From Stutzerimonas stutzeri (lineage in GTDB: Bacteria > Pseudomonadota > Gammaproteobacteria > Pseudomonadales > Pseudomonadaceae): a DNA stretch of 64,000 bases. The notes beneath the pieces were generated by a model. It saw only the letters and a program-made list of their open reading frames with translations. It ran no database searches and had not been told where the DNA came from. Position 1 is the first letter of the stretch; each line of letters opens with the position of its first letter. Position numbers and translations under genes: made by a program. Below are positions 51,686 to 62,317 of the stretch, piece after piece. Location: assembly GCF_015291885.1 (NCBI RefSeq), contig NZ_CP036186.1, positions 1,691,001-1,755,000 of the forward strand. Direction: 5' to 3'.

Positions 51686-51705
51686 GGCGGGCGCGAACGC
51701 CCGCC
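51686..51705. terminator. Hairpin between the AcoR-like and LpxR genes
   Basis: Perfect 8-bp stem GGCGGGCG / CGCCCGCC with a CGAA loop, immediately after the activator stop codon and before the convergent lpxR stop. No U-tract, so termination strength is uncertain. Confidence 0.5.
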
Positions 51706-51714
51706 GTCATGGTG

Positions 51715-52698
51715 TCAGAGTGCGGTGGACAGGGTGATCGAACCGAACTGGTCGTGTTCCCGCTGGCTCTGGAATTCGCGGGTGCGCCAGACGTTGGCGA
51801 ATGCCAGTTGCCAGCGGCTCCAGGTCAGTGCCACGCCGACCTTGGCATCCCCGACCCACTCGCGGCGGTCAACCGAATGGCTGTCCTCGAAGGTGTTGCC
51901 GTCGAGCAGCATGTTGTGCGCCATGTAGCGGCCCTCGAGATTGGCGAAGCCGTACCAGGCGAAATCCCCACCCGGCCGGAAGAACTGGCTGCCGCTCTGC
52001 GCCGGCGTCACCGCCGGAATGCTGAAGCTGCGCTGCAGGTTCTGCCCCAGGCGCAGGCCCAGCCCGGCAGAGCCATAGCGATAGAGGTTGCCGAGGGCGA
52101 AGCCCACGCTCGGGCCATATTCCAGCTCCAGCCCGGCGAAGCGTTCCTGCAACCACCAGCGGTGCTGATAGCCCAGGTTGACGAAGGGCTCGTTCTCCAG
52201 CTGGTTATCCCAGCCGTTGGGCTCGTCGCTGTCGGTTACCTTGTGCACGGCACGCTGCAGGCGCTTGCCGCCCGCCGCCGGGCCGACGATGCCGACATCC
52301 AGGTGCAGCCCTTGCGCGGCGCGCCAGCCGTCGTACTGGGTGTCGGAAAACATCGACATGCCGGCGAACAGCAGGCCGGCGTAAGGGCGGTCGTCTTCGA
52401 TCAGATTTCGGGTTTCGATTTCCTCTGGCGTGTAGATCTGGTGGCCGAAGCGGTAGGCGACGTTGTCGACGGCATTGCCCGACCAGCCGGGCAGCAGATC
52501 GGCGAAGCGCCGCGTCCAGCTCTGGTCGTCCGGTTCGAAACCCCAGCTGACTTCCAGGCCGTTGGTGTAGTGACCATCGCTGCCCGAGGCGATGATGTCG
52601 TTCTCCGCCTTGATGGCGAGGATGTCCGCATGGCTGACGGCGGGGGCGGTGATGGTTGCGGCGAGCAGGCACAAGCACGGCAAAGAACGAGAATGCAT
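51715..52698 (-). CDS. lpxR: Outer-membrane lipid A deacylase, LpxR family
   Basis: A 327-aa protein with a Sec signal (ends AVSHA) and a beta-barrel body matching LpxR/DUF2219. Conserved stretches are IKAENDIIASGSDGHYTNGL, YTPEEIETRNLIEDDRPYAG, and C-terminal strands with alternating hydrophobics. LpxR removes the 3'-acyloxyacyl chain of lipid A at the outer surface. The Asn-Asp near residue 33 and the RPYAG loop correspond to the family active-site region. It follows the MBOAT/ACP operon on the same strand after 77 bases, so it may be co-expressed with that envelope-acylation locus. Confidence 0.87.
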   Translation of the reverse strand: MHSRSLPCLCLLAATITAPAVSHADILAIKAENDIIASGSDGHYTNGLEVSWGFEPDDQSWTRRFADLLPGWSGNAVDNVAYRFGHQIYTPEEIETRNLIEDDRPYAGLLFAGMSMFSDTQYDGWRAAQGLHLDVGIVGPAAGGKRLQRAVHKVTDSDEPNGWDNQLENEPFVNLGYQHRWWLQERFAGLELEYGPSVGFALGNLYRYGSAGLGLRLGQNLQRSFSIPAVTPAQSGSQFFRPGGDFAWYGFANLEGRYMAHNMLLDGNTFEDSHSVDRREWVGDAKVGVALTWSRWQLAFANVWRTREFQSQREHDQFGSITLSTAL

Positions 52699-52775: not shown

Positions 52776-53840
52776 TCAGGGCGTGTCGTACCCGTCGTTT
52801 CTGGCCAGTCCCGCCTTGCTGACCATCTCCTGTCTGGCTTCCTGCAGTTGCTCGGCCAGTGCCGCGGAAAAGTCATGCACGGCTGACCAGCGCAGGTGAA
52901 TGGCGTCGACGAAGGCAGCCGGTGGAGCAACCCATTCGCGATCGGCGTTCCAATACTGAGCCCCGTCATGCCCGGCGATGGCGGCGTTCAGCTTGGCGTC
53001 GAAGCGGGCGAGAAAGCTGCCATCGGCATCGACCTTGGCTTTCCACTGCGGGTGCAGGGGCGTGGAAACCACAAGCAGCTGACGTCGCTCGCTATCCAGG
53101 CGTTTCGACAGTTCGCCCAGGGCGACAAAGCAGCTGTCATCCAGCGCATCCGGTTTGTCGTAGAACAGGCCGCGATCACCCTGCGGCTCCAGCGGCCCGT
53201 CGCCGTGGCGGGTGAACACCAACGGGTCCCATTCGATCTCGTTGGCCCGCTGCGCCTTGACCGTCTGCGCATTGCGCAACAGCGAACGCGGCGAGAAGTA
53301 GCGCATGTAGTAACCCCAGCGTGAGGCCTGCTGATAAACGTAGTGATCGGCATCCTCGCGGTCGAACACCGCATCCGGCACTTTCCAGCAGCCGGCGAAG
53401 TCCAGCGGATCGACGATCATCACCACCTGGCGGACGCTCGGTTCACGATCCAGCAGCCAGTTGGCGACATAGGTCGACTGGTTGGCGTGCAGGCCGCAGA
53501 ACGCACCGTTGAGCGGACGCAAGCCGGGCGTCTGCTCGATCAGCACGTCACCATCGACATGGCGCCAGGCGACCGAGGAGCCGACGATCAGCAGGTTCGG
53601 ATCGGCGATGGGGTTGTGCCGCAGAAAGTGCAGCTTTTCGTCCACGCACAGGCTGTTGGAGAAGGCCGGTGGCGGCAGGTTGTCGGTGTGATTGAGCCAG
53701 GCAAGCAGGGCGGCAAAGCCGCAGAGCATCCCGAACAGCCCGACGAACATGCCCAGCAGGTAGCCGGCACGTACCGGCCGCCGGTCTGCCTCGGCCCGGG
53801 TGGCGTCGCCGCCCGGGCATGTATCGACGGATCTGGCCAT
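52776..53840 (-). CDS. Membrane-anchored SGNH-type transferase (DltD/AlgJ-like)
   Basis: The 354-aa protein has one N-terminal membrane helix (GYLLGMFVGLFGMLCGFAAL, about 26-48), then a periplasmic SGNH-like domain. A block-I serine is in LLIVGSSVAWRHV (Ser88/89) and the C-terminal D-x-x-H dyad in FVDAIHLRW (Asp312, His315). This is the logic of DltD and AlgJ/X proteins, which receive an acyl group from an MBOAT partner and pass it to a polymer. It is 3 bases downstream of the carrier-protein gene and last in the MBOAT-FkbH-ACP operon. Confidence 0.78.
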   Translation of the reverse strand: MARSVDTCPGGDATRAEADRRPVRAGYLLGMFVGLFGMLCGFAALLAWLNHTDNLPPPAFSNSLCVDEKLHFLRHNPIADPNLLIVGSSVAWRHVDGDVLIEQTPGLRPLNGAFCGLHANQSTYVANWLLDREPSVRQVVMIVDPLDFAGCWKVPDAVFDREDADHYVYQQASRWGYYMRYFSPRSLLRNAQTVKAQRANEIEWDPLVFTRHGDGPLEPQGDRGLFYDKPDALDDSCFVALGELSKRLDSERRQLLVVSTPLHPQWKAKVDADGSFLARFDAKLNAAIAGHDGAQYWNADREWVAPPAAFVDAIHLRWSAVHDFSAALAEQLQEARQEMVSKAGLARNDGYDTP

Positions 53841-53843
53841 GAC

Positions 53844-54092
53844 TCAACGCCCTCCGAGTTTGGTCTGGATCAGTTGGGCGAAGTGGCCAACGTTCTTCAG
53901 CGATTCCAGTTCGGCGGTGCGGAACTTGATGCCGAAGCGTTGCTCGGCGGCCACGATCAGCAGGACATGGGTCTGACTGTCCCAGCCATCGATGTCGTCG
54001 GCGGTGGTTTCGGAGGTGAGGACGATATCGTCATCGTCGAACACGTCGTGGAAGACCTGGGTCAGCGCCTGGAGAATTTCCCTTTCGTTCAT
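53844..54092 (-). CDS. Acyl carrier protein
   Basis: An 82-aa acidic four-helix carrier protein. The phosphopantetheine attachment Ser39 lies in DDIDGWDSQTHVLLIV, the equivalent of the DSL motif with Gln in place of Leu. It is not the fatty acid AcpP, being encoded in an operon with an FkbH-like loading protein (4-base overlap upstream) and the SGNH transferase (3-base gap downstream). It should carry the acyl unit from FkbH to the cytoplasmic face of the MBOAT, as DltC does in D-alanylation. Confidence 0.88.
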   Translation of the reverse strand: MNEREILQALTQVFHDVFDDDDIVLTSETTADDIDGWDSQTHVLLIVAAEQRFGIKFRTAELESLKNVGHFAQLIQTKLGGR

Positions 54093-55990
54093 GCTTGCAC
54101 CTGGATGTGGTGGTTGATGGAAGCGCGCGAGGCCAGCTCGTAGCGCCAGAAACTTGCATCGGCGGGGGCGTTGGCAGGGGCGGGGCGCTGCTCGAAGCCC
54201 AGCCGCGGGTAGTGCTCGGCGACCATGCCGTTGCGTTCGCTGGGGCGGTACTCGCCAACCAGGGCACGCCAGCCGGCAGCCGCGGCTGCCTCGGCCAGCA
54301 CTTCCAGCACCGCCGCCTCGACCTGGCGGCCCAGCACGCGGCAGCTCATCGGCCAGCTGTCGATCAGCAGTTCATCAGCCTCGATGGCTGCATCCGCTCG
54401 CGCCAGCACCACACTGATCAGGCCGTTGTCACCGAACTTGTCCTCCAGCCGCAGCGCCAGGGCGATGGCTTGCGGATTGCTGGCCATGCGCTCGACTTCG
54501 GCTTCGGTATAGCGGCGGGTGGTGAGGTTGAACTGGTTGGTCTTGTTGATCAGCTGGGTGGTGCGCGCCAGCTCGGCGGCGCCGATGCGGCTGACGCGCA
54601 GCACCATCTGCAGCCCGCGCAGGTAGCCGTCCATGTCAGTCGCCTGGCTCTGCGCGGCCTTGCGTTCGGCATTCAGCGCATAGCTGCGGCCGCGCTCGGC
54701 GTCATCGGAGGTAAAGGACACGGCCTCGAAATAGCCCGCCGCGGCGATGCGGGCAGGGTAATTGGCGACATCGTCGGGCAGCTCCGGTACGGCGACTTCC
54801 GGCAGCTCGCGGCGCACGATGTCGCGCTCTGCGGGGTTGTCGTCGACGAACACCAGGCTGTCCAGACCGATATCGAGCATGCTCGCAATGCGCCGCAGGT
54901 TGCCCGCCTTGTCTTCCCAGTTGGCGACGAATGCCGCGATATCGCTGCGCTTGAGCGCCATTTCCGGATGCGCGAATGCCGCCTCGGCGACGTGCAGGTC
55001 GTTCTTGCTGCACACCGCGAGGATCACCCCGCGGCGCGCCAGTTGCGCGGCATAACGCTGGAAGGCGAGAAACGCCTCGCCGCTGGGGCTGCCCTGGCCG
55101 AGCTGGATTCCGTCGATGCCGTCATCACCGATCACGCCGCCCCAGAGGGTGTTGTCCAGATCGAGTACTAGGCACTTGCGTGACAGCCCGGCAGTGGCCG
55201 CCGCGATCCGCGCCAGATGTTCGCCATATAGCGGAGCCAGGGTCGGGCTGACCAACTGCTTGGCCTGATGCCAGCGCACCGGCTCGGCCAGGCCGTCGCC
55301 ATAAGCGGCTGCGTGCCAGGCCAGATCGAGCAGCAGCACGCCATCCTCGCGGGCAGCGGCGCGGATGGCCGCATTCAAGCGTTCGATGACTGCCCGCGGC
55401 GATGCTGGCACCAGTGCTTCGTAAGAGCCGAACAGTGGCGGCGCGACCGGCACCAGGGTTTGCTGCACCACCTGTGCGGCGTATCGCTCACGGGCCCGGC
55501 GCCAGAGCATGCGCAGTTCATCGACGCGCTCCGCCACCGCGGCATCCACTTCTGCCTGGCCTGCCTGCAAGGGCAGTTGCAGCGGCGCGTCATGGGCGTC
55601 CAGCGCCAGCAGCACCAGTTGCGGGGCGAAGGCGTTCAGCGCCGGGTCATCGGCCAACAGTGCCTGGCGGTACATGCCGTAGGGCGCAACGTGCAGCGAC
55701 AGCGCCAGCCGCCGCTGCAACCCGGCAACGCGAATGGCCGGTAGCAGGTGATCCACCGTATGCGAGGACAGCAGCGCCACCCGCAGCGGCGTCAGTCGTG
55801 CTGCCGCGGCATGCTGTTCGATACCGGTGGCGACCAGCTTGTCCAGCCGAGCGGTCAGGGTGAAATCCCGTTGAAAGGTCGCCAACCGCGCGGCTTCGTG
55901 CAGGCGCGGCAACGGGTCATCGATACGTTTGGCTTGGCCGATTGCAGCGGAGAGATCCGGGTGCGCCGGCAGCCAGGAGAGTTGTTGCAT
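54089..55990 (-). CDS. FkbH-like HAD-IIIC protein, presumed carrier-protein loading enzyme
   Basis: The 633-aa protein has an N-terminal SGNH-like region (about 1-250), a HAD-IIIC phosphatase/acyltransferase core with DLDNTLWGGVIGDDG (~residue 275, D-x-D-x-T), AVCSKND with the conserved Cys, and VFVDDNPAERD. A C-terminal GNAT-like domain follows (NKTNQFNLTTRRYTEAEVER, DKFGDNGLISVVLA). FkbH proteins convert 1,3-bisphosphoglycerate into a glyceryl thioester on a carrier protein in polyketide pathways; relatives handle other C3 units. Here no polyketide synthase is present and an ACP gene overlaps its stop, so it probably loads that ACP. Confidence 0.85.
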   Translation of the reverse strand: MQQLSWLPAHPDLSAAIGQAKRIDDPLPRLHEAARLATFQRDFTLTARLDKLVATGIEQHAAAARLTPLRVALLSSHTVDHLLPAIRVAGLQRRLALSLHVAPYGMYRQALLADDPALNAFAPQLVLLALDAHDAPLQLPLQAGQAEVDAAVAERVDELRMLWRRARERYAAQVVQQTLVPVAPPLFGSYEALVPASPRAVIERLNAAIRAAAREDGVLLLDLAWHAAAYGDGLAEPVRWHQAKQLVSPTLAPLYGEHLARIAAATAGLSRKCLVLDLDNTLWGGVIGDDGIDGIQLGQGSPSGEAFLAFQRYAAQLARRGVILAVCSKNDLHVAEAAFAHPEMALKRSDIAAFVANWEDKAGNLRRIASMLDIGLDSLVFVDDNPAERDIVRRELPEVAVPELPDDVANYPARIAAAGYFEAVSFTSDDAERGRSYALNAERKAAQSQATDMDGYLRGLQMVLRVSRIGAAELARTTQLINKTNQFNLTTRRYTEAEVERMASNPQAIALALRLEDKFGDNGLISVVLARADAAIEADELLIDSWPMSCRVLGRQVEAAVLEVLAEAAAAAGWRALVGEYRPSERNGMVAEHYPRLGFEQRPAPANAPADASFWRYELASRASINHHIQVQA

Positions 55991-56011
55991 GCCTGTGACT
56001 CCTTGTCGTGG

Positions 56012-57550
56012 TCAGAACTGGAAGTAGAGGAATTCGGTCGGCGCCATGGAAAAGGCGATCGCCAGGGCGAAGAAACCGAGCACACCAATCGCCATGCCGT
56101 GGATTGCCGTCGGGCGCCAGGCGCTGACCGGCAGCAACCGCTCGGTCCAGTGCGGCTGGGCCTGGAAGTTGAGCGCGGTTCGGAAATGGCCCATCCACTG
56201 CTGCACGTTCGGCATGCCCCAGACGAACACCAGCAATGCGGCGATATAGACGAAGTCGGAGCGATCCATCGCCGTGCTGATCGGGCTCAGGCCGAGCATG
56301 CCGGCGAGGATCGCCATGGCGGTCGGCACGTCGCTGGCGCGGAAGAACACCATAGCCACCACCACGCAGCCAAAGGTCAGGGAGACGGCCGCCGCCTTGT
56401 GCCACCAGATGTCGCTGTCCAGCTTCCAGCCCTGACGTGCCTTCCAGGCACGCCAGCCGTGGGCGACCACCAGATAGAAGCCATGCAGCAGGCCGAAGGC
56501 GACGAAGTGCCAGCCGGCGCCGTGCCAGATGCCGGAGATGAACATGGTGAACACGGTGGGGTAGGCAACCAGTGCGAAGAAGGTGCCGGCGGTCATCTTG
56601 CCCCGTCGCGGCTGCGGCTTGCCGGCCGCCATGCGCGCGCGGGTCACGCGCAGCACGATAGGGTTGTAGATGTAGGCCGTGAGAAAACGCGTCAACGTCA
56701 TGTGCCAGCGCGACCAGTAGTCGATGACGTTGCGCGCCTTGAACGGGCTGTTGAAGTTGGCCGGCAGGCTGATGCCGAACAGCAGCGCCAGGCCGATGGC
56801 CATGTCGCTGTAGCCGGAGAAGTCGAAGTAGATCTGCAGTGTGTAGGTCAGCGCGCCGGTCCAGGCATCGAAGAACGCCGGGATGGTGCCGTCGGCGGCC
56901 AGGCTGAAGACCGGCGTGGCTTTTAGCGCGAGGGTGTCGGCGATCACCACCTTCTTGAACAGGCCGAGCAGAAACACCGTGGCGCCCAGCGACAGGTTGT
57001 CGATGCGCGCGCGGAAGCTGTTGCGGTCGTTGAACTGCGCAAGCATCTCGCCGTGGTGGGTGATCGGCCCTGCGATCAGCTGCGGAAAGAAGCTGATGAA
57101 CAGGCAATAGTTGGCGAAGTCGTGTTCTTCCACCACGCCATCATGGGCATCGACCAGGTAGGCGATCTGCTGGAAGGTGAAGAAGGAGATCGCCAGCGGC
57201 AGGATGATGTCTTCCACCCGCCAACCGAGATCCAGCGCCGCATCCAGCGTGCCGAGTAGAAAACCGGTGTACTTGTAGTAGACCAGCAGCAGCACGTTGG
57301 CCGCGACCGCCAACCCGAGCACCAGGCGTGAGGGGTGCCGGCGCAGGTAGCCACCGAGCAGATAGTTGACCAGCATGCTGCCGACCAGCAGCGGTACATA
57401 GACCGGGTTCCACCAGCCGTAGAACACCAACGAGACGACGGTCAGCCAGATCACCGCGAGCCGCTGTCGGCCCGATCCGGTCAGCACGAAGAATCCAATC
57501 AACACCACCGGAAGAAATCCGGCGATGAATTCCACTGAATTGAAAAGCAT
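56012..57550 (-). CDS. MBOAT-family O-acyltransferase with C-terminal acyl-shuttle-like motif
   Basis: A 512-aa polytopic inner-membrane protein of the DltB/AlgI family. It starts MLFNSVEFIAGFLPVVLIGF, has SLVFYGWWNPVYVPLL, and carries the catalytic His region FISGIWHGAGWHFVAFGLLH (His of LLHG). The protein ends TEFLYFQF: the last six residues fit the FxYxxF acyl-shuttle motif that in Dlt-like systems takes the acyl group on its Tyr and hands it to the SGNH partner. It is the first gene of the operon, 21 bases before the FkbH-like gene, with AGGGA before the ATG. Confidence 0.9.
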   Translation of the reverse strand: MLFNSVEFIAGFLPVVLIGFFVLTGSGRQRLAVIWLTVVSLVFYGWWNPVYVPLLVGSMLVNYLLGGYLRRHPSRLVLGLAVAANVLLLVYYKYTGFLLGTLDAALDLGWRVEDIILPLAISFFTFQQIAYLVDAHDGVVEEHDFANYCLFISFFPQLIAGPITHHGEMLAQFNDRNSFRARIDNLSLGATVFLLGLFKKVVIADTLALKATPVFSLAADGTIPAFFDAWTGALTYTLQIYFDFSGYSDMAIGLALLFGISLPANFNSPFKARNVIDYWSRWHMTLTRFLTAYIYNPIVLRVTRARMAAGKPQPRRGKMTAGTFFALVAYPTVFTMFISGIWHGAGWHFVAFGLLHGFYLVVAHGWRAWKARQGWKLDSDIWWHKAAAVSLTFGCVVVAMVFFRASDVPTAMAILAGMLGLSPISTAMDRSDFVYIAALLVFVWGMPNVQQWMGHFRTALNFQAQPHWTERLLPVSAWRPTAIHGMAIGVLGFFALAIAFSMAPTEFLYFQF

Positions 57551-59458: not shown

Positions 59459-60574
59459 TTGCATATCGCGGATGTGACCATGTTTTACGCGCCCGCTAGT
59501 GGTGGCGTGCGCACGTACCTCGAGGCCAAGCATCGCAGGTTGCAGCTCTATTCGGGCGTGCGCCATAGCATTCTGGTACCGGGCGATGACTACCACCATA
59601 ACGATGGCATCTATCAGGTGCCGGCGCCCATTCTGCCGTTCGGCAAGGGCTATCGCTTTCCGATCAGACGTGCGCCTTGGCGCAACCTGTTGCGGTCTTT
59701 GCGACCTGATCTTATCGAGGTGGGTGACCCTTACATGACGGCCTGGGCGGCGCTGGACGCCGGGCGTCAACTGAATATTCCGGTGATCGGTTTCTATCAT
59801 TCCGATCTGCCGCTGTTGGTCAGCAACCGCATCGGCGGCTGGCTAGGGCCCAATTTCAATGGGTACGTCTCGCGGCTGTACGGCAGCTTCGACCGGGTGC
59901 TTGCCCCCAGCGAAGTAATGGCTGACAAGCTGATTCACCTAGGCGTCAAGAATGTATTCGTGCAGCAGTTGGGGGTCGATCTGGATACCTTCTGCCCCGA
60001 GCGTCGTGATCCAAACCTGCGCCGCGAACTGGGGCTGGCCGACGACACCCGGTTGATGATTTTTGCCGGCCGCGGTTCGCGGGAGAAGAACCTGCATATC
60101 TTGCTAGAAACCGCGCGCCAGCTCGGCAGGCCCTACCACTTGTTGCTGGTGGGTTCGAGTATGCCGCAACGGGTGCCGGACAATGTCACTGTGATTGACC
60201 GCTTCTGTTCCGCCAGCGAAGTGGCGCGCTACATGGCTAGCTGTGATGTGCTGTTGCACGCAGGCAATCAGGAAACCTTTGGTCTGGTGGCGCTGGAGGC
60301 CATGGCCAGCGGCATTCCAGTGGTGGCCGCGCGTGCCGGAGCGCTGCCTGAGTTGGTGCCGTTCTACAGTGGGCGCCTATGCCGGCCGCTTGACCCGAGG
60401 GCCATGGCGCATACCGTGCGTGAATTGTTCGAGGACGACCCCAGGTTGCTGGGCGTGCAGGCGCGCCAACATGTCGAAGCTCATCATGCCTGGGATGCGG
60501 TGGTGGCAGGACTGCTCGCGCACTACCACGCTGTACTGGGAACGGCGGACGTACCGGTAGCCGTACATGGTTGA
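59459..60574 (+). CDS. GT4-type glycosyltransferase
   Basis: A 371-aa GT-B glycosyltransferase. The N-terminal domain begins MHIADVTMFYAPASGGVRTY and the C-terminal domain has LMIFAGRGSREKNLHILLET, PDNVTVIDRFCSASEVARYM and the nucleotide-sugar motif HAGNQETFGLVALEAMASGI (E-x7-E). The start is TTG at 59,459 with GGAGAAG 5 bases upstream. It overlaps the following deacetylase gene by 8 bases, and that gene overlaps a UPF0104 membrane protein, so the three likely build or export a glycolipid. Donor and acceptor are not known. Confidence 0.87.
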   Translation: MHIADVTMFYAPASGGVRTYLEAKHRRLQLYSGVRHSILVPGDDYHHNDGIYQVPAPILPFGKGYRFPIRRAPWRNLLRSLRPDLIEVGDPYMTAWAALDAGRQLNIPVIGFYHSDLPLLVSNRIGGWLGPNFNGYVSRLYGSFDRVLAPSEVMADKLIHLGVKNVFVQQLGVDLDTFCPERRDPNLRRELGLADDTRLMIFAGRGSREKNLHILLETARQLGRPYHLLLVGSSMPQRVPDNVTVIDRFCSASEVARYMASCDVLLHAGNQETFGLVALEAMASGIPVVAARAGALPELVPFYSGRLCRPLDPRAMAHTVRELFEDDPRLLGVQARQHVEAHHAWDAVVAGLLAHYHAVLGTADVPVAVHG

Positions 60575-61328
60575 GGCTGCTCTGACGGTGGTGCTGCACG
60601 ACGTGGCTGCGGAAACCTGGCCGGATTACCAGCCCTTCGTAGAGGCGGTGGACGCCATCGGCGGCGTGCCGATCACCTGGTTGGTGGTCCCGGATTTTCA
60701 TCAGCGCAATTCGCTGGAGCAGCAACCGGATTTCTGCAATCTGCTGGATCAACGCGTGCAACGCGGTGATGAACTGGTGTTGCACGGCTGCTATCACGCC
60801 GATCTCGAGCCCGCGCCGAAGACACCGCGGGACTGGTTCATGCGCCGGGTGTACACCCATGAAGGCGAGTTCTACGGCCTGGACGAACAGGCGGCGGGTG
60901 AGCGCCTTGCGCATGGCCTGGAGTTGTTCCGGCGCCAGCAATGGCCGCTGCACGGCTTCGTCGCGCCCGCCTGGCTGATGAGCGAAGGAACGCGGCGAGC
61001 ATTGGCCAGCAGCGATTTGGTCTATACCAGCGATCCGGGCCATCTTTATCTGCTGCCCGATTTCTCCGCGATCACCGCTCCTGGGCTTGTCTGGAGTGCT
61101 CGCAGCCCTTGGCGTCGTGGCGTGTCCTGGCTGGTCAGTGAACGCCAGCTACGGCAGAGTCGCAGCGCGCCATTGCTGCGCCTGGGCTTGCACCCGGTGG
61201 ATATGCGCCATGAGTTTTCCCGTCGATACTGGCTCGGTGTACTCGAACGCTTGCTGCAGGAAGGTAGGCAACCGATGACCAAGATTGATTGGCTGCGCCA
61301 GTATCGGTCGAAGAGCGCCGTGGCATGA
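60567..61328 (+). CDS. DUF2334 polysaccharide-deacetylase-fold protein
   Basis: A 253-aa protein with the NodB-like fold of DUF2334: an early metal-site region LTVVLHDVAAETWPDY, then LVLHGCYHADLE (H-G-x-x-H-like) and GFVAPAWLMSEG. No signal peptide is visible, so it is likely cytoplasmic. It might deacetylate the sugar added by the upstream glycosyltransferase, but activity is inferred. Starts inside the GT gene and overlaps the next gene by 4 bases. Confidence 0.83.
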   Translation: MVEAALTVVLHDVAAETWPDYQPFVEAVDAIGGVPITWLVVPDFHQRNSLEQQPDFCNLLDQRVQRGDELVLHGCYHADLEPAPKTPRDWFMRRVYTHEGEFYGLDEQAAGERLAHGLELFRRQQWPLHGFVAPAWLMSEGTRRALASSDLVYTSDPGHLYLLPDFSAITAPGLVWSARSPWRRGVSWLVSERQLRQSRSAPLLRLGLHPVDMRHEFSRRYWLGVLERLLQEGRQPMTKIDWLRQYRSKSAVA

Positions 61329-62317
61329 ACCGCCGTTGGTGGATTATGGGCGGCGCGTTGCTCGGCGCGGCCATGGTGCCGCTGTTGCTTGGCGGCACCG
61401 GCCTGTTCGAGCGTCTGCGCAGTTTTCCCGGCAGCCTGCTGGCGATGATGCTCGGCATGATAGTCGTAGGGTGGAACCTCAATGCGCTGCGCTTGCGCTT
61501 GCTTCTGGGGCGTCGACTACTGGGCCAACGCCGCGCATTCGGCATCGTCGTCGCAACCGAGTTTGCCATTTGCGCGACGCCTGGCGGCGCGGGTGGGCCG
61601 CTGACGCTTATGGCACTGCTGATGCGCCAGGGCGTGGCGCCGGCCAAGGGCACAGCAACCTATGCCGTCGAGCAGCTGAGTGATCTGCTGTTTTTCGCCT
61701 GCGCATTAATAGGTGTGCTGTTCTATGCGTTGACCCACAAGCTGAACGCGCATATCGCCAGCCTGCTAGGTTTCAGTGTGGCGCTGCTCATCGGGGTACT
61801 GGTGCTGCTAGCACTGCTCGGGCGCTTTCATCGCCAGGTGTTTCTGCTCAACGGTTGGCTGGTCAGCCGCCTGGGTATGAAGCAGCCGCGCAAGCGCCGA
61901 TGGGCTCGCAAGGTGCTGGGTTTCCGCAACGCGCTGATCGATTGCTTTCGCCTGCCGCGCCGGATCTTGCTGGCGGTATTCGGTCTCACCACGCTGCACT
62001 GGCTACTGCGTTTCAGCGTGCTGTACCTGACGCTGCAGGGGCTGGGCAGCGAACTGGCGTGGGCGTGGACGTTCCTCGTGCAGCTGTTGGCGCTGACTGC
62101 CGGCCAGCTCAGCCTGTTGCCGGGTGGAGCGGGCAGTGCAGAGTTGGCCTCGGCGGCGCTGCTGACGCCGATGGTGGGCAAGTCGACAACTGCAGCGGCG
62201 ATTCTGATCTGGCGCTTCGTGACCTATTACTTCTACCTCATCGCCGGCGCGCCAGTGTTTATGCACCTGGCGGGGCGGCCGCTGCTGCGCCGATTGATGC
62301 CATCGCGTCACGTCTAA
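61325..62317 (+). CDS. UPF0104 / lysylphosphatidylglycerol synthase TM-region family protein
   Basis: A 330-aa membrane protein with about eight helices, including IMGGALLGAAMVPLLLGGTG, SLLAMMLGMIVVGWNLNALR, ATEFAICATPGGAGGPLTLM (conserved CATPGG-type motif) and LLPGGAGSAELASAALL. It corresponds to the membrane part of MprF/LPG synthase without the catalytic domain. Such proteins are candidates for lipid or glycolipid flipping. It is coupled to the deacetylase by ATGA, so it may translocate the product of that pathway. Confidence 0.85.
   Translation: MNRRWWIMGGALLGAAMVPLLLGGTGLFERLRSFPGSLLAMMLGMIVVGWNLNALRLRLLLGRRLLGQRRAFGIVVATEFAICATPGGAGGPLTLMALLMRQGVAPAKGTATYAVEQLSDLLFFACALIGVLFYALTHKLNAHIASLLGFSVALLIGVLVLLALLGRFHRQVFLLNGWLVSRLGMKQPRKRRWARKVLGFRNALIDCFRLPRRILLAVFGLTTLHWLLRFSVLYLTLQGLGSELAWAWTFLVQLLALTAGQLSLLPGGAGSAELASAALLTPMVGKSTTAAAILIWRFVTYYFYLIAGAPVFMHLAGRPLLRRLMPSRHV

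Follow-up and report, generated by a model that had tools for sequence, protein, structure and literature searches.

The window analysed here, a stretch of 64,000 nucleotides from Stutzerimonas stutzeri (contig NZ_CP036186.1, positions 1,691,001 to 1,755,000), carries a four-gene module encoding a membrane-bound O-acyltransferase (MBOAT), an FkbH protein, a free-standing acyl carrier protein (ACP) and a membrane-anchored SGNH protein. Together, these proteins probably form a transmembrane acyl relay that would carry a glyceryl-type C3 acyl group from 1,3-bisphosphoglycerate onto an envelope glycan, a reading drawn from sequence comparison to which we assign a probability of roughly 0.6. The module is real and conserved, and apparently a new combination of known parts. 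Its novelty is provisional and refers to open-licence papers, in whose full texts neither a description of an MBOAT-FkbH-ACP-SGNH module nor a HAD-IIIC protein together with an MBOAT was found. This agrees with the preliminary description of this DNA, which knew of no Gram-negative pathway with such a part list. MBOAT and FkbH do co-occur in papers on aeruginosin and suomilide, as separate steps of a peptide pathway (PMC10143770, PMC13122637). The four genes are the following.

56012-57550, minus strand: MBOAT, DltB-like, with the C-terminal acyl-shuttle motif FLYFQF (512 aa; open reading frame list, Pfam, NCBIfam)
54089-55990, minus strand: FkbH protein (633 aa; open reading frame list, TIGR01686)
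53844-54092, minus strand: free-standing ACP (82 aa; weak PP-binding match, Ser39)
52776-53840, minus strand: membrane-anchored SGNH protein, a distant DltD relative by profile (354 aa; motifs and profile)

The four genes are packed like one operon, with 21 nt between MBOAT and FkbH, an overlap of 4 nt between FkbH and ACP, and 3 nt between ACP and SGNH. Whole-genome searches of the 4.64 Mb, single-contig genome returned one PF03062 match and one TIGR01686 match, namely the MBOAT and the FkbH protein of the operon. Since the only MBOAT and the only FkbH of this genome adjoin, and since the same adjacency recurs at 70 of 80 FkbH loci elsewhere, their association is more than chance. The preliminary description had presented the genes as a coupled set paralleling DltB, DltA, DltC and DltD, with a shuttle motif fused to the MBOAT and a series of named active-site residues; gene set, motif and residues were all recovered at the positions given below, and the Dlt parallel was borne out.

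The MBOAT matches PF03062 with 81.7 bits. Its only NCBIfam match is the DltB model TIGR04091 (191.5 bits, under the equivalog cut-off of 375 bits) and its only PDB matches are DltB-type entries. The DltB alignment covers the protein to about residue 404. In the 108 residues beyond, one hydrophobic stretch (482-500) rises above threshold and a second, near 433-447, is visible by eye only; two extra helices are described for MBOATs with a fused motif in the excerpt of PMC12148441. The sequence FLYFQF occupies residues 507-512 and provides F507, Y509 and F512, with the histidine H343 also in place. Among relatives H343 is kept in 69/69 and Y509 in 68/69, and an FxYxxF tail closes 68 of the 70 FkbH-linked MBOATs, the two exceptions being a gene cut at a contig end (L158) and one with a different tail (L186).

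The FkbH protein exceeds the TIGR01686 cut-off of 146.65 by a wide margin (288.6 bits), its FkbH domain spanning residues 271-600 and its N-terminal part being GDSL/FkbH_N-like (FkbH_N 25.6 bits, below the cut-off of 27). The HAD aspartates D277 and D279 are in place and invariant in 80/80 relatives. Its only PDB match, 3slr, is an uncharacterised Bacteroides protein and of no help for the cargo. We predict that this protein loads a C3 acyl group from 1,3-bisphosphoglycerate onto the ACP; the formation of glyceryl-ACP by FkbH has been proposed (PMC7489565). The ACP itself matches the PP-binding family with 20.1 bits, slightly below the cut-off of 20.8. Its Ser39 lies in a W37-D38-S39 motif kept in 77/77 relatives, and an ACP gene was found near FkbH at 77 of the 80 loci.

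The SGNH protein has a single hydrophobic segment (28-46), a G87-S88-S89 motif in which the usual nucleophile position (G-x-S) is Ser89, and a late D312-x-x-H315. Both serines are kept in 50/50 relatives, D312 and H315 in 48/49. With the single sequence, no Pfam or NCBIfam model was matched, no Pfam family appeared even at E 1, and no PDB sequence matched at E 1. A profile of 35 relatives searched against the PDB matched DltD only (E 0.003-0.073; three distinct sequences at E up to 10), PatB not being among the matches. Pfam searches of the 35 profile members gave nine weak PF04914 matches (best E 0.0027), three to Lipase_GDSL_2 (0.0018) and one to ALGX (0.0036). In the source records the relatives are named 'hypothetical protein' or, for some, 'SGNH/GDSL hydrolase family'; the precomputed Pfam accession PF27429.1 is attached to about 40 of the 120 SGNH relatives listed. 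We use the SGNH label because of the motifs, the source names of some relatives and the DltD-matching profile.

Within the genus, 37 genomes were sampled, the window's own included. The MBOAT is present in 32 of them at no less than 73% identity over at least 489 residues. Of the remaining five, three lack an MBOAT, one carries a fragment and one has just a distant MBOAT (32%). At all 34 further loci compared by tblastn, from 31 genomes besides the window's, MBOAT, ACP and SGNH genes stand side by side. FkbH is seen with them at 24 of these loci, and at the other 10 the FkbH stretch has no readable bases. What looked like another gene in the place of FkbH in some members of the genus was discarded as an effect of unreadable bases rather than biology. 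Three genomes carry the module twice, at different places. Proteins 93-98% identical to the window FkbH occur in Pseudomonas songnenensis, Stutzerimonas kunmingensis, S. chloritidismutans and other Stutzerimonas.

Beyond the genus, genome contigs were scanned with the FkbH protein; the best 80 of at least 572 confirmed matches were retained and an MBOAT was counted within 4.5 kb. The synteny anticipated by the preliminary description is widespread, an MBOAT adjoining FkbH at 70/80 loci, or at 48/58 when the Stutzerimonas group (22 loci, L112-L132 and L152, all with MBOAT) is set aside. Fifty loci have ACP, MBOAT and a profile-detected SGNH, 18 have ACP and MBOAT, two have MBOAT with the contig ending in FkbH, nine have ACP alone and one has neither. 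The 70 MBOAT-linked loci belong to alpha-, beta- and gammaproteobacteria, Acidobacteriota, a Gemmatimonadota, a cyanobacterium and a Candidatus Binatota bin. Gene order varies among them, with MBOAT-FkbH-ACP-SGNH, SGNH-MBOAT-FkbH-ACP (L154, L162) and FkbH-ACP-MBOAT-SGNH (L170, L171, L183). As the order differs between lineages, the set has been kept together and is not merely frozen.

An FkbH tree of 76 rows was built by a quick search, leaving out 16 near-copy or short loci and the short protein of L110. The window FkbH falls inside a wholly MBOAT-linked group of 48 rows (SH-aLRT 82), with a 36-row subset at 99, and the MBOAT-linkage label changes six times on the tree against a shuffled mean of 17.2.

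Polyketide and aeruginosin-type pathways also employ FkbH proteins (PMC7489565, PMC10143770, PMC13122637). In a first alternative, the module would serve secondary metabolism, with FkbH and ACP supplying a glycerate-derived building block of a small molecule that the MBOAT and SGNH proteins tailor or export. In its favour, one cluster of a relative within the genus (L057) combines an MBOAT gene with genes for an AMP ligase, a P450-like protein, an ACP and a carbamoyltransferase. The MBOAT there, however, aligns at 32% identity over part of its length, and its frame lacks the FxYxxF ending. By regular expressions applied to the DNA around each locus, a ketosynthase or adenylation (A-domain) motif was found at 0/70 MBOAT-linked loci, against 4/12 FkbH loci of other genera of the order. 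The ketosynthase search of the window genome gave six matches, all in frames of at most 449 aa. We consider this alternative most improbable, and a polyketide or peptide pathway was rejected on these grounds. The preliminary description had noted the lack of a nearby polyketide synthase and had asked whether homologous clusters would consistently belong to secondary metabolism; the first statement held and the second pattern was not seen. In the order as a whole, FkbH is over cut-off in 14/293 genomes. Twelve genomes outside the genus account for 16 such matches; no MBOAT lies within 7 kb at any of the 12 loci retained (one per genome), and the other four matches sit in open frames of 4240-4547 aa.

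DltA is the adenylating ligase of the Dlt pathway, which D-alanylates teichoic acids, and the Bordetella dra locus is a Gram-negative relative of Dlt. In alginate O-acetylation (AlgI, AlgJ, AlgF, AlgX), an MBOAT and periplasmic SGNH enzymes act on an exopolysaccharide; to our knowledge, this set has no carrier protein and no FkbH. The module resembles it in its MBOAT and SGNH parts, and in one relative, discussed below, ALGX-domain and weakly AlgF-like genes stand together with FkbH-ACP-MBOAT. An ALGX search of the window genome gave no match and is uninformative, as no control genome matched either.

According to the excerpt of PMC12148441, DltB moves D-Ala from the carrier DltC to the Tyr of the FxYxxF motif of DltX and then to the Ser of DltD, PatA, with acetyl-CoA as donor and with its motif fused, hands over to PatB, and MBOAT/SGNH pathways other than Dlt are said to be without a carrier protein. 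The module shares with Dlt a carrier-protein donor, a DltB-like MBOAT, the FxYxxF Tyr hexapeptide, an SGNH protein with a weak DltD profile match and the organisation in one operon. Unlike Dlt, it has FkbH in place of the adenylating DltA, with no AMP-binding match among the four proteins, to which the search for DltA was confined; its motif is the MBOAT's own C-terminus rather than a separate DltX, as in 68/70 relatives; its host is Gram-negative, and its MBOAT scores below the DltB model cut-off. With PatA/PatB it shares a Gram-negative MBOAT with a fused C-terminal FxYxxF and a separate SGNH transferase, differing by its dedicated ACP and loader genes, also found in relatives, where PatA uses acetyl-CoA (PMC12148441). 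The combination of an MBOAT-fused motif, a dedicated carrier and a non-adenylating loader separates it from both. Finally, FkbH with a stand-alone ACP is also the pairing behind glyceryl-ACP formation in tetronate and methoxymalonyl pathways (PMC7489565, excerpt). In contrast to those, the module has no ketosynthase partner, and the MBOAT/SGNH pair is the apparent consumer.

From these comparisons a three-step relay can be put forward, with the loading and shuttle steps modelled by homology and the cargo taken from the FkbH family. FkbH would take the acyl-phosphate 1,3-bisphosphoglycerate and form glyceryl-S-ACP, as expected from its family. By analogy with the PatA and Dlt mechanisms, the MBOAT would then take the acyl group from the phosphopantetheine arm of the ACP onto its own Tyr509 in FLYFQF, on the periplasmic side. 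Finally, the membrane-anchored SGNH protein would accept the acyl group on Ser89 and esterify an envelope glycan, a polysaccharide being the most likely acceptor.

A polysaccharide acceptor is favoured because of an exopolysaccharide-type cluster and of sugar-nucleotide neighbours in relatives. The former, in an Alcaligenaceae (L187:2-13785), comprises genes for a UDP-GlcNAc 2-epimerase, a family 2 glycosyltransferase (GT2), an NfrA_C protein, an AlgF-like protein (weak, E 0.0021, under cut-off) and two ALGX-domain proteins, followed by FkbH-ACP-MBOAT; it has the appearance of a gene set for exopolysaccharide acylation in which FkbH is the loader. As to the latter, neighbouring genes were clustered by BLASTP and one member per cluster was scanned with Pfam; a nucleotidyltransferase, a dTDP-sugar-isomerase-type and an epimerase gene each occur in 6/35 loci, at most five genes from the module. 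At loci of this type these genes may make the acceptor sugar.

A second alternative retains the relay with a different end point, the acceptor being lipid A or a membrane lipid, for example the glucosaminyl-phosphatidylglycerol (GlcN-PG) of the neighbouring operon, and not a polysaccharide. It draws on two neighbours of the module, an LpxR gene 77 nt downstream of the SGNH gene and a divergent operon about 2 kb upstream, which resembles gpgSDF (PMC12713373, excerpt). LpxR is, however, present at only 11/34 genus loci in the tblastn neighbourhoods and absent from the second module copies L034 and L039, where the four-gene unit persists, and the MBOAT-SGNH pairs treated in PMC12148441, as far as the excerpt goes, act on polymers. 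A lipid acceptor is therefore very unlikely in our view. A third alternative concerns the cargo: FkbH of this branch might start from some other phosphorylated C3 acid, or glyceryl might be turned into, for example, lactyl on the ACP before transfer. No residue examined fixes the cargo, and MaoC/short-chain dehydrogenase (SDR) genes lie between ACP and MBOAT in an Acidobacteria module (L158:3644-5185) and a Hyphomicrobiaceae module (L189:12144-13634, the SDR match under cut-off). This suggests that the acyl group is sometimes reworked on the carrier in relatives, and such genes inside the module are what would be expected if an ACP-bound C3 hydroxyacyl were modified before transfer. The window operon, on the other hand, has no MaoC/SDR gene, and its FkbH domain lies well above cut-off with invariant HAD residues. 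Another acyl group is thus unlikely here. The open-licence literature held nothing usable on gellan glyceryl transfer or on glycerate in Pseudomonas or Stutzerimonas glycans.

Several observations weigh against the proposed glyceryl relay to an envelope glycan. We infer its cargo and its acceptor from family and context, and no glycan gene cluster adjoins the window operon, whose neighbours are LpxR, BrkB and the GlcN-PG operon. The link between the SGNH protein and DltD is weak, and absent for the single sequence. The window's SGNH type is also rare, being found in 2/274 genomes of the class, both of the genus, so this version of the system is patchy. At 20 of the 70 MBOAT loci the profile found no SGNH protein. 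Two of these (L129, L152) are contigs ending inside FkbH. Of the remaining 18, 16 have a candidate SGNH gene of 318-367 aa beside the module, 11 with G-x-S and a late D-x-x-H, four with one of the two, and L187 with its two ALGX-domain genes. Except at L187, these candidates are motif matches only, with noise-level scores against the SGNH profile. No SGNH candidate was found beside the modules of L186 and L188.

The linkage itself has limits as well. Ten of the 80 FkbH loci have no nearby MBOAT; the sequence around five of these extends about 8-10 kb to either side, and that of the other five less than 3.4 kb downstream. Many of the 80 scanned loci are metagenome bins, 22 are near-copies from the Stutzerimonas group, and only the best 80 were kept. 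In the FkbH tree, itself a quick search with several outgroup rows on very long branches, nine MBOAT-linked rows fall outside the 48-row group, among MBOAT-less rows in an unresolved part. Given these nine rows and the long outgroup branches, a single origin of the linkage is neither shown nor excluded.

In its broadest form, the proposal is that of a widespread third way to power envelope acylation, in which FkbH would tap 1,3-bisphosphoglycerate directly rather than acyl-CoA or an acyl adenylate made from ATP, and the carrier, a Tyr-shuttle MBOAT and an SGNH protein would put glyceryl, or a reworked C3 acyl in the MaoC/SDR branches, onto surface polysaccharides in several phyla. We see this generalisation as an even bet. 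If true, it would link central glycolysis directly to the decoration of surface polymers and add FkbH-charged carriers to the acyl-CoA and D-Ala-carrier donors of the acyl-Tyr relay. It would also point to genes that may place O-glyceryl groups on the glycans of bacteria, and would be an exception to the claim, in the excerpted text of PMC12148441, that MBOAT/SGNH pathways outside Dlt are carrier-less.

Two further features follow the operon on the same strand.

51715-52698, minus strand: LpxR family protein (Pfam)
51686-51705, minus strand: terminator-like GC hairpin of 8 pairs with a loop of 4, directly past the LpxR stop (pattern match only)

LpxR is possibly the fifth and last gene of the same transcript in this lineage. 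Pattern matching found no terminator-like site between the five genes and no promoter-like site in the operon region; the three terminator-like sites it did find compare with 4.5 expected in shuffles. Because of its limited presence in the genus, LpxR is placed outside the core module. Both LpxR and the GlcN-PG operon were considered as core parts and rejected, their adjacency being regional only. The latter is a three-gene operon on the plus strand (59459-62317) whose products exceed the model cut-offs for GlcN-PG synthase, deacetylase and flippase (NF053787-9); gpgSDF of Pseudomonas aeruginosa is the described case (PMC12713373, excerpt).

Among the relatives, the sugar-nucleotide neighbours can be seen at L136:3904-7646, with nucleotidyltransferase, dTDP-sugar-isomerase-type and epimerase genes whose clusters recur in differing orientations at L141, L146, L154, L170, L171 and L157. 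A DRL-type oxidoreductase gene joins them at some of these seven loci. This PF21135 (DRL) oxidoreductase is a possible module partner. The protein cluster whose scanned member matches PF21135 lies at most five genes from the module at 8/35 loci. The family occurs in 35/37 genus genomes, including two without any MBOAT match (G005, G029), and in eight genus genomes a copy shares the contig with the module at a distance of about 4-31 kb. In the window genome the single copy is 0.8 Mb from the module and has genes of about 1030-1060 aa next to it.

Distant MBOATs of the order (L052-L057, L072-L077) have no FkbH match beside them, and at L076 an ACP on the opposite strand adjoins the MBOAT. Tails were viewed at four of these loci: FxYxxF is present at L073 (two genes), L074 and L076, and not at L057. 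The motif alone is therefore no marker of the four-gene system. The L057 cluster (L057:6748-14031), with its FAAL-like AMP ligase, P450-like protein, ACP, carbamoyltransferase and distant MBOAT, looks like an unrelated small-molecule cluster. At L073:7824-14215, where FkbH is absent, there are two FxYxxF-ending MBOAT genes, and behind each lies a gene of 505-525 aa with no clear Pfam match; this represents another MBOAT arrangement in the order.

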